Source: Gracilimonas sp.
GTDB taxonomy: Bacteria; Bacteroidota; Rhodothermia; Balneolales; Balneolaceae
Direction: 5' to 3'
Assembly (NCBI RefSeq): GCF_040218225.1
Contig: NZ_JAVJQO010000002.1
Location: forward strand, 310,001 to 374,000
DNA length: 64,000 bases
The notes under the pieces are model-generated. The model made no database searches. It had not been told where the DNA came from and saw nothing but the letters and a program-made list of their open reading frames with translations. The stretch's first letter is position 1, and the number at the start of each line of letters is the position of its first letter. This document shows, piece after piece, positions 23,268 through 54,348 of the stretch. The translations under genes and the position numbers were made by a program.

Positions 23268-24428
23268 ATGTCACGTACTTCAATACCCGCGAACCTTAAG
23301 CTTGGATTTTTAGGTGCTGGTCAGCTGGCCCGAATGAGTTCTCTTGAAGCTTTTCGATTTGGAATTCAGGTAGCTGCATTCTCTGACAGAACTGAGAACG
23401 AACCACTTCAATTTATGACACCTTATTCTACCTCCGGGTCTTTTGAATCGGTGGATGATATGGTGGAATTTGCCAAAGGCTGTGATGTCATCACCCTGGA
23501 AAACGAATTCATCAGTTCCGAGATCCTGAAAGAAGTACAGGAAAAAAGCGGAACACCAATCTATCCTTCGCCGGATAGCTTTGCATTGATTGAAAACAAG
23601 CTGATTGAGAAGCAAACTTTTGAAGCAGCGGGAATTCCTGTCACCCCTTATAAACTGGTCGAGGGAGACTCTGATTTAAAGGAATTCGGGGAAGATAATG
23701 GATGGCCTTATATGCTCAAATCTTCCAAAGGCGGTTATGATGGGTACGGCAATGAGACTGTGAACAATCTTGATGAAGCAAAAGAAGCTTTTTCAAATCT
23801 TGGTGGCGATAAAGGACAGGATATTCTGGCTGAAGCTTTTGTGGATTTCACCAAGGAGCTTGCGGTTCAGGTAGCAAGGAATGAAACCGGCACTGTTGTT
23901 TATCCATGTTGTGAAACCGTTCAGAAAGATCATATTTGTGTCGCTGTTTTATCTCCTGCTCCCGTTGAGAAAATAGTACGGGAAATGGCTCAGGAATTAG
24001 CCTTTAAAGCCACTGAAGCTATCGATGGAAAAGGAATTTTTGCCTTCGAGTTCTTTCTTACAAAGGATGGTTCACTGATTCTGAACGAGTCAGCCCCCCG
24101 GCCTCATAACTCTGGTCACTATACCATAGAAGGAACCGTGGCTTCCCAATTTGAAAATCATGTCCGTGCTGTTTTAGGTCTACCTCTCGGTTCAACCCGA
24201 TTAAACAAACCTGCCGTTGCAATGATTAACCTGCTGGGTACACATAAACGTCCTGCTGAAACCGACCATATAAAAGAAGCCATGGAAACCGAAGATGGTC
24301 ATCTTCATGTATATGGAAAAGTGGATAGTAAAGTAGGTCGTAAGATGGCCCACTACACGCTGCTGGGTGATAGTCTGGAAGAGACTTATAAAAAAGCGAT
24401 GCATGTCACCAGGGAATTCGAAATTTAA
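23268..24428 (+). CDS. purK: N5-carboxyaminoimidazole ribonucleotide synthase
   Basis: A 386-residue ATP-grasp enzyme that makes N5-CAIR from AIR, ATP and bicarbonate in purine synthesis. The N-terminal segment LGFLGAGQLARMSS is the family signature, followed by the ATP-grasp core (YMLKSSKGGYDGYGN, ILAEAFVDFTKELAVQVAR) and the C-terminal NESAPRPHNSGHYTIEG that lines the active site. It is followed by purE after 58 bp, matching the pathway order. Confidence 0.97.
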   Translation: MSRTSIPANLKLGFLGAGQLARMSSLEAFRFGIQVAAFSDRTENEPLQFMTPYSTSGSFESVDDMVEFAKGCDVITLENEFISSEILKEVQEKSGTPIYPSPDSFALIENKLIEKQTFEAAGIPVTPYKLVEGDSDLKEFGEDNGWPYMLKSSKGGYDGYGNETVNNLDEAKEAFSNLGGDKGQDILAEAFVDFTKELAVQVARNETGTVVYPCCETVQKDHICVAVLSPAPVEKIVREMAQELAFKATEAIDGKGIFAFEFFLTKDGSLILNESAPRPHNSGHYTIEGTVASQFENHVRAVLGLPLGSTRLNKPAVAMINLLGTHKRPAETDHIKEAMETEDGHLHVYGKVDSKVGRKMAHYTLLGDSLEETYKKAMHVTREFEI

Positions 24429-24434
24429 AGCCTT

Positions 24435-24458
24435 GTCATGCTGAACTAGTTTCAGCAT
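24435..24458. repeat. Small palindrome (GTCATGCTGAA type) between purK and purE
   Basis: GTCA is followed by TGCTGAA, a 5-nt loop CTAGT, and TTCAGCA. This resembles the dispersed GTCATCCTGAAC...TTCAGGAT family also seen at 34782. Being inside an operon, it may affect mRNA stability or partial termination between the two genes. Confidence 0.5.
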
Positions 24459-24486
24459 CTTCATACTAACAAATAACTAATATAAA

Positions 24487-24975
24487 GTGATGAGCAAACC
24501 AATCGTCGGAGTAGTTATGGGCAGCGACAGTGACTGGCCCACCATGAAAGAAGCCGCTGAAATCCTCGATTATTTTCAGATTCCATATGAAAAGCGTGTG
24601 GTTTCCGCTCACCGAACACCCGATATCATGGCCAGCTATGGTAAGGAAGCCAGAGAACGGGGAATTCAAGTGATTATAGCGGGCGCAGGTGGCGCTGCTC
24701 ACCTTCCGGGTATGCTTGCCAGCCATACTACCCTACCGGTAATTGGTGTTCCTGTTAAAACTACAGCCTTAGGTGGTGTAGATAGCCTTTATTCGATTGT
24801 ACAAATGCCCAATGGTATTCCCGTGGCAACCGTGGCAATAGGAAAAGCAAAAAATGCCGGATTACTCGCCATTCGTATGCTGGGCATGGACGATGATTCT
24901 CTAACCAAAAAGCTGGAAAATTACCATCAGAAAATGGCACAAGAATCTATGAAGAAGACAGAAAATTTAAAGTAG
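24487..24975 (+). CDS. purE: N5-carboxyaminoimidazole ribonucleotide mutase
   Basis: A 162-residue class I PurE that isomerises N5-CAIR to CAIR. The signature is [19 protein letters not shown], followed by [12 protein letters not shown] with the catalytic His. The [27 protein letters not shown] segment forms the substrate-binding loop. Length and motifs are standard. It is the second gene of the purK-purE unit, with a palindrome in the intergenic gap. Confidence 0.98.
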
Positions 24976-32508: not shown

Positions 32509-32737
32509 TGTATTGATCCTTTTGATTATGGTTAGAGAGGCCAACTATTTATACCGTCTGTAAAATAAGTCCATATTCATGGAAACTCGTATTTTGGCCG
32601 AACTTTTATATAACACCAAATAAAAGTCTGTTTTTGGGATAAATGCAAGCGCTTCCACTACTTTTTATTTATGCATCATTGCTTTGCTTCTCTTATCCTT
32701 AGCAGAACTTTACCTACACCCTTTAAGGACAGTATTC

Positions 32738-33451
32738 ATGAATGTTTCAGTAAAATCAATTTTTAAATTTCTGCAGATATTATTTCTTGCTTTTCTTTTA
32801 TCTAATTGTGAGTCAAAGGTTAAAAAGAACGCCTCTGATTCTGCAGAACCGGTTTCTTACCTGGCCCTTGGCGACTCGTATACCATTGGCACCGGTATTG
32901 ATCAGACAAATAATTATCCCAACCAGTTGGCTGATTCTCTTTCAACACTTGGCTTTCAAGTTGATACCACTCAGATTATCGCCACAAATGGCTGGACTAC
33001 AACCGATCTTAAAAATGGGATTGCTGAGAACAAACCACCGTCTGATTTTGACCTCGTTTCTTTATTAATAGGAGTAAATAATCAATATCAATGGCTGGAT
33101 ATTGAGCTATATCGAGCGGAATTCCGTGAATTACTGGAGCAGGCTGTTGAATTTGCCGGTGGGAAAAGTGAGAATGTATTTGTTATCTCTATTCCCAATT
33201 ATGGTGTAACCCCTTTTGCCCAGTCTAAAGACCCTGAAACCATTCGCAGAAAAATTAAAGAATACAATAACATAGCTGAAGAAATCAGTAATGAATTTGA
33301 TATTTTATTTATAAATATTACCCCAATATCAGAAATGGCAGCTAATGACCTTTCATTGTTAGCTTCCGACGAGCTCCATCCATCCGCAAAAATGTACAGC
33401 ATGTGGATTGAGGAGATGTTACCAACAGTAACTCAAATTATAGAACCATGA
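32738..33451 (+). CDS. SGNH/GDSL hydrolase lipoprotein
   Basis: About 237 residues from ATG 32738 (MNVSVKSIFKFLQ), with an AAGGA site upstream; a frame start at 32684 is less likely. A lipoprotein signal ends in LLSNC. The hydrolase blocks follow: LALGDSYTIGTG (nucleophile Ser), LLIGVNNQYQ (third block, Asn but GVNN rather than GxND) and DELHPSAKMY (catalytic Asp-His). It should be an esterase or lipase-like enzyme facing the periplasm. Its stop overlaps the next start by four bases (ATGA), so these genes are translated together. Confidence 0.88.
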   Translation: MNVSVKSIFKFLQILFLAFLLSNCESKVKKNASDSAEPVSYLALGDSYTIGTGIDQTNNYPNQLADSLSTLGFQVDTTQIIATNGWTTTDLKNGIAENKPPSDFDLVSLLIGVNNQYQWLDIELYRAEFRELLEQAVEFAGGKSENVFVISIPNYGVTPFAQSKDPETIRRKIKEYNNIAEEISNEFDILFINITPISEMAANDLSLLASDELHPSAKMYSMWIEEMLPTVTQIIEP

Positions 33452-34067
33452 AAGCCGAATTTAACCTCACCCACCTTTCAGCTTCCAAAGATCCTTTAAC
33501 CGATCGGATCACATTCACCGAAACCATCGAATTCAGACTTTGGATGGCAGTCGCTGTACTTAGTTATCTGAGTTTTCATCTCTTCAGCTTACTTGATATT
33601 GAATTGGCAGGATGGCAGCAGATGCTTCTTGCTGCAGGTATGGTAGTAGGTTATGGATTCGCATTTATGGGAGTGCTGTTCAGAAGCAGCGCAGGGAAAG
33701 CGGCAATATCAAAGGATGAAATCAGGCTATATCCCACAAAAAAAAAGAAAAATTTCCAGATGTTCCTATTCCTGTCACCAAAGAATCCGAGATCAAAGTT
33801 TATGTAGTCCAGAAACTCAACTGGTTCACCCCTAAAGCTATCTTACATTTTTCTGTTTCTAATGAAGGTCATGAGAATGAATTCACAATAAAATTGGGGA
33901 ACAAAAAGAGTAAAGAACAATATTTGGAGTTGTTGGAAGGTTGGTACAGAAGCGGATATTCTTTAGAGGAGTATGACATTACAGGTAGCCGAATTTTTAA
34001 ATTAGACCGAGGAAAATCGTATGCAGACATTCAAAAAATCAAAGCCGAATATGGTATCAGCTGGTAA
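33448..34067 (+). CDS. Membrane protein of unknown function, interrupted by a -1 frameshift at a poly-A slippery site
   Basis: I do not recognise a family. The first frame (33448-33807, 119 residues) has two likely membrane helices (about 30-50, 58-78) and then leaves the coding pattern. From 33747 the -1 frame stays open through KVYVVQKLNWFTPKAILHF to a TAA at 34065-34067, giving about 105 further residues with good coding character. The change occurs at A9 followed by G, with A AAA AAG exactly in phase (33741-33747). A joined product has about 205 residues. It may be programmed frameshifting, transcript slippage, a mutation or a sequencing error. It overlaps the SIMPL gene. Confidence 0.7.
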
Positions 34068-34770
34068 AAAACTCTCAAAAATCACCCTTGTTGTTTCCAT
34101 GATGTTTCTGGGCTTTGGCGAAAAAGCTTCCGCCCAAAATAACCCGGACGAGCGAACCATTACCATAAATATGAGTTCATCTGAACTATTGCCGGCCGAC
34201 CTGATTATCTTTAATGTGAATATTAACGCGGAGGCCGAAACTCCCCAGGAAGCGTATCGAGTTCATAAAGAAAGGGAATCTCTTTTAGCTAAACTATTAA
34301 AGCAGAATAAGATCGAGGAAGAAGATATTGATTATGAACCTATTCGTATGAATAAGGTAAGTGCAAACTATCGCAACCAGGATGATTCTAAGGTTACACG
34401 AACTAATCAATCTGTAAGCCTTACTTTTAGCGACTTTTCTATTTATGAGAAGATTCAAGTCGCGTTAATTGAAAATGGCTTTGATTCTTTTAACGGGCAA
34501 TTTTCTTCTACCGAAATTTCTAAAGGCAAGGAACAGGCTTTGATAAGTGCCATCGAGTCAGCAAAGAAAAAAGCTGAGCTCATTGCTAAAACTTCCGGGG
34601 TTACATTGGGCAAAGTTCAAACCATCAATTACTCCGACCATCAAATCGGAATACCTCAAAAGTCCAGTCTTATGTCTATGGAGGCCATGAGAAGCGATGC
34701 CTCTATGATGGATTTTAGCCAAACAGTTTCCGTAACTGCCAACATAAACATCTCTTTTAATATTGAATAA
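34021..34770 (+). CDS. SIMPL-domain (DUF541) periplasmic protein
   Basis: A 249-residue protein. The start at 34021 has AGGA seven bases upstream; ATG 34051 is an alternative. The signal peptide (LVVSMMFLGFGEKASAQ) is followed by the SIMPL fold: ERTITINMSSSELLPADLIIF near the start, and AIESAKKKAELIAKTSGVTLGKVQTINYSD in the second half, both typical. DUF541 proteins such as BP26 form oligomers in the periplasm; function is poorly known. It overlaps the frameshifted gene by 47 bp, so the three genes from 32738 form one cluster. Confidence 0.85.
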   Translation: MQTFKKSKPNMVSAGKKLSKITLVVSMMFLGFGEKASAQNNPDERTITINMSSSELLPADLIIFNVNINAEAETPQEAYRVHKERESLLAKLLKQNKIEEEDIDYEPIRMNKVSANYRNQDDSKVTRTNQSVSLTFSDFSIYEKIQVALIENGFDSFNGQFSSTEISKGKEQALISAIESAKKKAELIAKTSGVTLGKVQTINYSDHQIGIPQKSSLMSMEAMRSDASMMDFSQTVSVTANINISFNIE

Positions 34771-52379: not shown

Positions 52380-54182
52380 TTAATTAGCGAGCTCTTTTGC
52401 CATTTCCTCAGCTTCTTCTACCATGCGTTCAAACGAAGCAAGGCCTTTATTCCAAAAATCAGGTTGAGTTATGTCCAATCCCATTTTAGCCACCAAATCA
52501 TGTGGCCATTCTGAACCTCCTGCACTCAACAATTTCAGATATCGGTCCGGGAAACCCTCCGGACGCTGTGTGTATTCTTCATATAAAGCCAATACCAGCA
52601 ATTCCCCGAAAGCATAAGCATATACATAGCCCGGGGTATGCAGGAAATGCGGAATATAGCTCCACCAAATGCTATACTCATCAGTAAGGGTAACAGCATC
52701 TCCATAAAGTGCCTTCTGCTGCTCCATCCATAATTCAGAAAAGCGTTCTTTGGTTAACTCACCTTCTTCTCGTCGAGCCGTATGCATGGCATGTTCAAAA
52801 CGGTTCATCGAAATCTGACGAAATACCGTAGCAATGGTATCATCAATTTTTCCAATCAGCAGAGCCAGCTTTTCTTTTGGATCATCCAGTTCTTTCATCA
52901 GTTTTTGGAACACCAGCATTTCGCCAAAAACGGAGGCGGTCTCTGCCGTGGTTAGCGGTGTTGAAGATTGCAAAACTCCCTGCTGGCGTGATAAGTACTG
53001 ATGTACACCATGTCCCAGTTCATGAGCCAGTGTCTGAACGTCCCGGATTTTCCCATCAAAATTCATGAATACATAAGGGTGAGCCGAAGGAACTGTACTT
53101 GCCGAATACGCACCACCTCGTTTGCCCGGCTTAATAGCCGCATCAATCCAGCTCTTCTCAAAAAACTCTTCTGTAATCTCTCCCATCTGTGGGTGAAACT
53201 TACTGTAAGAGTCCAATACCATTTCTTTGGCTGAATTCCAGCTGATCTTAGCTTCATTTTCCAGGATCGGAGCATATCGGTCATAATCTTTCATCTCATC
53301 AAGACCAAGCAGCTCACGCTTTAGCTTATAGTAGCGTTGCACCAGCTCATATTTCGAAGTCACTGACTCGACAAGAGCCTCAACCGTCTCTTTGTCCGTT
53401 TGATTGGACAGGTTCCTGGAGTCAATCCAACTATCGTACCTTCGAAGTTTATCGTTGGTTGATTTATCAGCTAATACGGTATTAAAAACAAAAGTGAGCT
53501 GACGGCTCAGATCATTGAATTTATCTGTCAATGATTTATGAGCACGAATTCTTAAATCCCGGTCGCTTTCATGCAGCTTACTCAGTACTTCCTGTTCGCT
53601 AAGTTCCTCCCCATCCAGTTCGAATTTGGCAGAACCCAGTGTTTCATCAAAAAAACGAACCCAGGCACTTCGCCCGGTAACGGATTTGGCTGACATAATC
53701 TTTTCCTGACCTTCTTCCAGCACATGCTCTTTATATCGGCGAGAACTCTCCAGGTAGTGTTTGTATTTACTAAGCTCTTCGCTCTCAATCAATTTTTGGG
53801 CTTCTTCATCAGGAACCTGTAGCCATTCTACATCCAGAAAAACCAGCTTTTGGCTTACCTCAGATGAAAGTTCATTCGATTCAGCTACCAGCTTTCCGTA
53901 AGCTGTGTTGGTGGTATCTGTTGACCACTGCAGATACGCAAAAGATCCAATTTTACCGGATAGGTCCAGAATTTTCTCATATTCATCCAGCATTTTCTTG
54001 AAATCAGAGGCATTTAGTTCAGCTATCTTACCCCGATATTTTTTACCAAAAGCTCCAGCATGTTCAACCACCTGCTTTTTGTCTTTGGCAAGTTGTGGGT
54101 CTTCGTTTGATGAATAAAGGTCAGAAAGATCCCAGTTTATATTTTCCGCCCCTGTTTTTTTCTTCGATGAATTCTCGCTCAT
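52380..54182 (-). CDS. pepF: Oligoendopeptidase F (M3 family)
   Basis: A 600-residue cytoplasmic metallopeptidase. The zinc motif LAHELGHGVHQYL (HExxH, about 386-390) is followed by the third ligand Glu in TAETASVFGEML. The surrounding segments (PFVFMNF type: HPYVFMNFDGKIRDVQT; YSIWWSYIPHFLHTPGYVYAYAFGELL) match PepF of family M3B. It cuts peptides of about 7-17 residues, probably to recycle them. It is a single gene, 55 bp before the GAF gene on the same strand. Confidence 0.95.
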   Translation of the reverse strand: MSENSSKKKTGAENINWDLSDLYSSNEDPQLAKDKKQVVEHAGAFGKKYRGKIAELNASDFKKMLDEYEKILDLSGKIGSFAYLQWSTDTTNTAYGKLVAESNELSSEVSQKLVFLDVEWLQVPDEEAQKLIESEELSKYKHYLESSRRYKEHVLEEGQEKIMSAKSVTGRSAWVRFFDETLGSAKFELDGEELSEQEVLSKLHESDRDLRIRAHKSLTDKFNDLSRQLTFVFNTVLADKSTNDKLRRYDSWIDSRNLSNQTDKETVEALVESVTSKYELVQRYYKLKRELLGLDEMKDYDRYAPILENEAKISWNSAKEMVLDSYSKFHPQMGEITEEFFEKSWIDAAIKPGKRGGAYSASTVPSAHPYVFMNFDGKIRDVQTLAHELGHGVHQYLSRQQGVLQSSTPLTTAETASVFGEMLVFQKLMKELDDPKEKLALLIGKIDDTIATVFRQISMNRFEHAMHTARREEGELTKERFSELWMEQQKALYGDAVTLTDEYSIWWSYIPHFLHTPGYVYAYAFGELLVLALYEEYTQRPEGFPDRYLKLLSAGGSEWPHDLVAKMGLDITQPDFWNKGLASFERMVEEAEEMAKELAN

Positions 54183-54348
54183 TCCTTAATCTTTTGAGTC
54201 TTTCGCCAGTTTGATTTTACGAGCTTGAATATAGGGGTTGCCGAAAGCGAATTAAAGACATCTTTCGAACTAAAGTCAGAATATTATTAATGGGAAAACA
54301 TCCGTGTTCTTCTTACTGAAATTCAATATTTAAATCGAACTTTAGCGC

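Follow-up and report, generated by a model that had tools for sequence, protein, structure and literature searches.

A membrane-protein gene of Gracilimonas sp. that was probably split by a recent length change in a run of adenines

We analyzed a stretch of 64,000 nucleotides of Gracilimonas sp. (contig NZ_JAVJQO010000002.1, positions 310,001 to 374,000 of the forward strand), hereafter the window, in which a membrane-protein gene found at the level of the genus is divided over two reading frames. The gene was probably split by a recent, species-specific change of a single base in the length of a homopolymer, and nothing indicates programmed production of the full-length protein. The features of the locus are the following.

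32684 to 33451, plus strand: gene for a GDSL lipase/acylhydrolase, from a candidate start codon (Pfam PF13472, E 1.4e-24)
33448 to 33807, plus strand: upstream frame, 119 aa as encoded, with the membrane protein's N-terminal part (sequence, homology)
33738 to 33747, plus strand: nine A (33738-33746) followed by G (33747), the site of the frame change, absent in nine intact homologues
33747 to 34067, plus strand: -1 frame, 106 aa and a TAA, with the protein's conserved C-terminal part (sequence, homology, pN/pS)
34009 to 34013, plus strand: GAGGA, a Shine-Dalgarno-like sequence for the SIMPL gene, inside the C-terminal part (sequence, relatives)
34021 to 34770, plus strand: SIMPL/DUF541 gene, 249 aa (Pfam PF04402, E 6.9e-28)

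The frame that starts at the ATG at 33448 reads ACA AAA AAA AAG AAA AAT TTC CAG ... across the run and ends at the stop codon at 33805-33807, and its residues past the run lie outside the frame of the family. The -1 frame from 33747 (GAA AAA TTT CCA GAT ...) is open as far as the TAA at 34065-34067. The heptamer A AAA AAG at 33741-33747 lies in phase with the upstream frame, in the X XXY YYZ arrangement of dnaX-type sites. The initial annotation had described the run, both frame ends and the in-phase heptamer, and direct reading of the sequence bears out its coordinates and phase. Separate translation of the C-terminal part was considered and rejected: the -1 frame offers no ATG, GTG or TTG before a TTG at 33894, which lies 49 codons into it, and the list of ORFs has no entry of 60 aa there.

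The two frames, when joined, encode a product of 206 residues, which is 82% identical to its homologue in the relative G007, 81% to that in G001 and 75% to that in G005. Because the joined frames match homologues that are encoded in a single frame, they are one gene and no chance pair, as had been proposed at first for a protein of about 205 residues. Searches with the joined sequence covered its own genome, 10 genomes of the genus (its own included), 92 family genomes and 39 from the same order or class. Matches were obtained in all 10 genus genomes and in 11 of the 92 family genomes, and in none of the 39 genomes of the same order or class. Over the nine intact relatives, the homologues are 31-82% identical to the joined protein, and of the 26 family columns that are nearly invariant, 23 fall in the C-terminal part (33747 to 34067). 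The loci L013 and L008 (genome G008) are the same locus and were counted as one. Two hydrophobic helices are apparent in the N-terminal part, both by reading the sequence and in a low-confidence model of homologue L013. Pfam gave nothing for the joined sequence at E values up to 1. Searches of Pfam and NCBIfam with the 11 aligned family members gave scattered hits only, of which the best Pfam ones (E 0.007 and 0.0087) are to unrelated families. Structure prediction for L013, with the two parts from the window as the other rows, reached a mean pLDDT of 38.9, which is not good enough for searching by fold. With its roughly 206 residues, the membrane protein has a hydrophobic N-terminal half and a conserved C-terminal part, and it has no assigned family.

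The gene is an uninterrupted single frame in eight of the nine other genus genomes and in G056, which belongs to another genus; the ninth genus genome, G006, has a short remnant alone. At the codons that correspond to the A run, G007 and G001 read ACA AAG AAA AAA GAA and G005 reads ACT AAA AAA GAG GAA, and in all nine intact relatives the A tract at these codons is at most six long. The codon comparison used the rows of the relatives; that of the window, with its N-terminal part cut at 299 bases and its C-terminal codons hence out of phase, was left aside. A run of nine A does not occur anywhere in the gene in any of these nine, where the longest A run is eight, nor does any of them have the in-phase heptamer or a shift at the homologous place. 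The intact relatives have neither the run nor the split, and therefore neither is conserved. The initial annotation had set a slippery site against the possibility that relatives carry a clean single frame without the run, and the comparison of run lengths that it had asked for decides against the former, since all nine intact relatives have such a clean frame without A9. Of its five explanations, programmed frameshifting and conserved phase variation find no support in the single-frame relatives; a recent indel or a homopolymer read error is left. Provided that the base call is right, the gene has the features of a recent-frameshift pseudogene, with a frame that is broken relative to intact orthologues and a break that is present in no relative.

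We then compared the selective constraint on the two parts. Between the window and G007, pN/pS is 0.206 for the N-terminal part (98 codons) and 0.231 for the C-terminal part (the 91 codons ahead of the overlap with the SIMPL gene). With G005 as the outgroup, the branch of the window carries three amino-acid changes in the N-terminal and four in the C-terminal part, and that of G007 carries 11 and four, respectively. By pN/pS and these branch-wise changes, no decay or relaxed selection was seen in the C-terminal part. Judged from the sequences, an undecayed C-terminal part fits a young mutation, a rescue of the frame or a read error equally, and so does not separate these.

With a recent length change as the preferred reading, the codons of the relatives suggest the following course. 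The A tract probably first grew longer through a substitution in the lysine codons, after which slippage during replication would have altered its length by one base. The truncated protein of 119 residues would be the expected main product of most ribosomes. Some full-length product could arise if RNA polymerase adds an A on A9 or if ribosomes slip on A AAA AAG. The gene seems dispensable, because G006 has lost nearly all of it. For annotation purposes, the two frames are one gene that should be marked as frameshifted, and the case has little importance beyond this.

The strongest competitor of this reading is a homopolymer miscall or an assembly error, in which case the living genome would have an intact gene; we regard it as a serious but clearly less likely explanation. 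The site is a homopolymer, and the undecayed C-terminal part is what an intact gene would have. Moreover, according to passages of Antonov et al. (PMC3711429), a sequencing error and not a true indel is to be expected where BLASTp confirms an unclustered frameshift, an expectation that favors an error and counts against a real mutation here. However, the assembly is 98.56% complete in 11 contigs of up to 926 kb, and five distinct A runs longer than nine were called in it as well, with lengths of A10, A11 and, at the longest, A12. Runs of exactly nine A are rare, numbering 33 in the whole genome, both strands counted. Of the 30 of these loci that were fetched, this one included, only this one looks split; eight lie in frames that stay open on either side for 50 codons or more, although an open frame around an A9 run is no proof of a gene, and 21 show neither pattern.

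Comparison of frames gave a similar picture. Over 461.8 kb of the genome, 289 of 407 G007 frames have a homologue with at least 60% identity, and among these 289 the membrane-protein gene is the only convincing split. Two raw frameshift candidates were obtained, of which the second, beyond the window at about 216.5 kb on contig C2 of the same genome, seems by its translations not to be a gene; the comparison also gave three raw candidates on the G007 side. Within the window, where 114 frames have a homologue in G007, 96 in G001 and 67 in G005 (shadow frames included), the gene is again the sole convincing split against these three genomes. A first, stricter frameshift filter flagged the A9 site against G005 only, and the counts given here rest on a loosened filter. 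Two other raw candidates in the window, both on the minus strand, were discarded without an apparent split gene: the one at 24356-24729 lies antisense to two frames (23268-24428 and 24487-24975), and the one at 54148-54274 spans a gene start and a gap. Since this is the lone split among the frames and A9 loci compared, the assembly is not generally broken at homopolymers, and the survey of A9 loci and the frame comparisons lend no support to the idea of an error-ridden assembly. The lone split weakens the reading as a sequencing error.

A sub-case of the preferred reading, and not an addition to it, is that the mutation is real and that RNA polymerase, by slipping on A9 in transcription, yields enough full-length protein for the gene to go on working, which would make the gene a pseudo pseudogene. 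We consider this possible but unlikely, slightly more so than a sequencing error. Passages of Baranov et al. (2005; PMC1088944) use the term pseudo pseudogenes for genes with a break at such a run and a partial restoration in the mRNA. They also report that, in a large proportion of bacterial genomes, selection against slippage becomes apparent at runs of nine bases, the length found here. The sequence features agree, with homologues in one ORF and a frame break at nine A, and the undecayed C-terminal part would fit as well. According to passages of another study (PMC5574713), insertions, the direction needed here, prevail in A/T runs and increase with run length; the data of that study are reported to include no restored frame. 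Against this, the run is not conserved in length among the homologues of the nine intact relatives, as would be expected for programmed transcriptional slippage, the gene is lost in G006, and a young mutation would give the same result.

The published cases show both the likeness and its limits. With the pseudo pseudogenes in these passages of PMC1088944, the gene shares a single-base indel that leaves nine A, an uninterrupted ORF in homologues and a frame that slippage would partly restore; theirs are described as A8 extended to A9, whereas in the present gene a longer run probably preceded the A9. The tssM1 gene of Citrobacter rodentium, as described in passages of PMC4256274, is similarly shortened after a poly-A tract with its C-terminal domain in another frame. 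That tract has 11 A, frame restoration was measured at about 20%, which speaks for a rescue by slippage, and both products are needed there; the run here is A9, read from the sequence, and the gene is lost in a sister species. The dnaX gene of Thermus thermophilus, as cited in PMC1088944, likewise has an A9 tract in its coding region, but there the templated A9 gives the full-length protein and slippage the shorter one, and here the reverse would hold. Slippage of RNA polymerase on A9 is plausible here, but as no more than a side effect.

The lengths of A/T runs were also counted. In 461.8 kb of this genome, the window included, runs of 5, 6, 7, 8, 9 and at least 10 bases number 1796, 638, 201, 32, 7 and 0, respectively. 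From length 8 upwards the drop is steeper than at shorter lengths, and the same was seen in 472 kb of G007. Long A/T runs may be avoided, as if they were mutable or slippery.

Phase variation, in which reversible changes in the run length would switch the protein on and off, is very unlikely. A homopolymer within the coding region of a membrane protein would suit it, but the nine intact relatives have no such tract; the species is sampled by one genome.

A programmed -1 ribosomal frameshift of the dnaX type, for which the in-phase A AAA AAG at 33741-33747 speaks, is the least likely explanation and was rejected for its lack of conservation in the nine intact relatives, the lack of structure and the commonness of the heptamer. 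Three pseudoknot-free folds around and after the site gave z values of +0.80, +1.09 and +0.78 against shuffled sequences, none of them being more stable, and the AAGGA nearest to the heptamer (33712-33716) lies 24 bases before it, too far to serve as a close Shine-Dalgarno sequence. The absence of a strong stimulatory hairpin and the distance of this AAGGA had already been noted in the initial annotation. In 461.8 kb of the genome, 36 in-phase copies of A AAA AAG are present in 30 of 385 frames (stop-to-stop frames of at least 80 codons, less than 40% overlapped by longer frames), and the other two phases have 120 and 41 copies. According to passages of PMC4066793, heptamers without stimulators gave, in E. 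coli, at most ten times the no-motif background of 0.055%. The site resembles the -1 frameshift site of E. coli dnaX in its in-phase A AAA AAG heptamer, and differs from it in that no stimulators and no conservation were found here.

The split gene is flanked closely on both sides. The TGA of the upstream hydrolase gene overlaps its ATG (ATGA, 33448-33451), and each of the 10 relatives' loci searched has a hydrolase homologue on the upstream side. The SIMPL gene starts at 34021 with an ATG inside the split gene and overlaps it by 47 bases; this offset is shared by all 11 genomes compared. The GAGGA inside the C-terminal part ends seven bases ahead of this ATG, and the 10 other genomes compared have GAGGA, AAGGA or AGGGA in this position. 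Scans for promoters and terminators gave about as many sites as shuffled sequences (4 versus a mean of 6.2, and 3 versus 2.1, respectively). Ribosomes that terminate at the stop codon ending at 33807 would do so 213 bases short of the SIMPL start, so that coupling to the SIMPL gene might suffer. A broader proposal combines two effects, with the break at A9 tolerated through slippage of RNA polymerase and the early stop altering the coupling to the SIMPL gene, such that the run sets the product ratio of the operon; we consider it improbable.

In the 47-base overlap (34021-34067), synonymous differences are fewer than elsewhere in the C-terminal part, although the overlap comprises 15 codons only. 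In G006 (locus L012, G006:C4:251892-254987, at about 1501-1623 on the minus strand), nearly the whole membrane-protein gene has been lost and its last codons are kept. These codons carry the ribosome-binding site and the start of the overlapping SIMPL gene, which suggests that the end of the gene was kept for this reason. The remnant in G006 is a tidy example of an overlap that limits gene loss.
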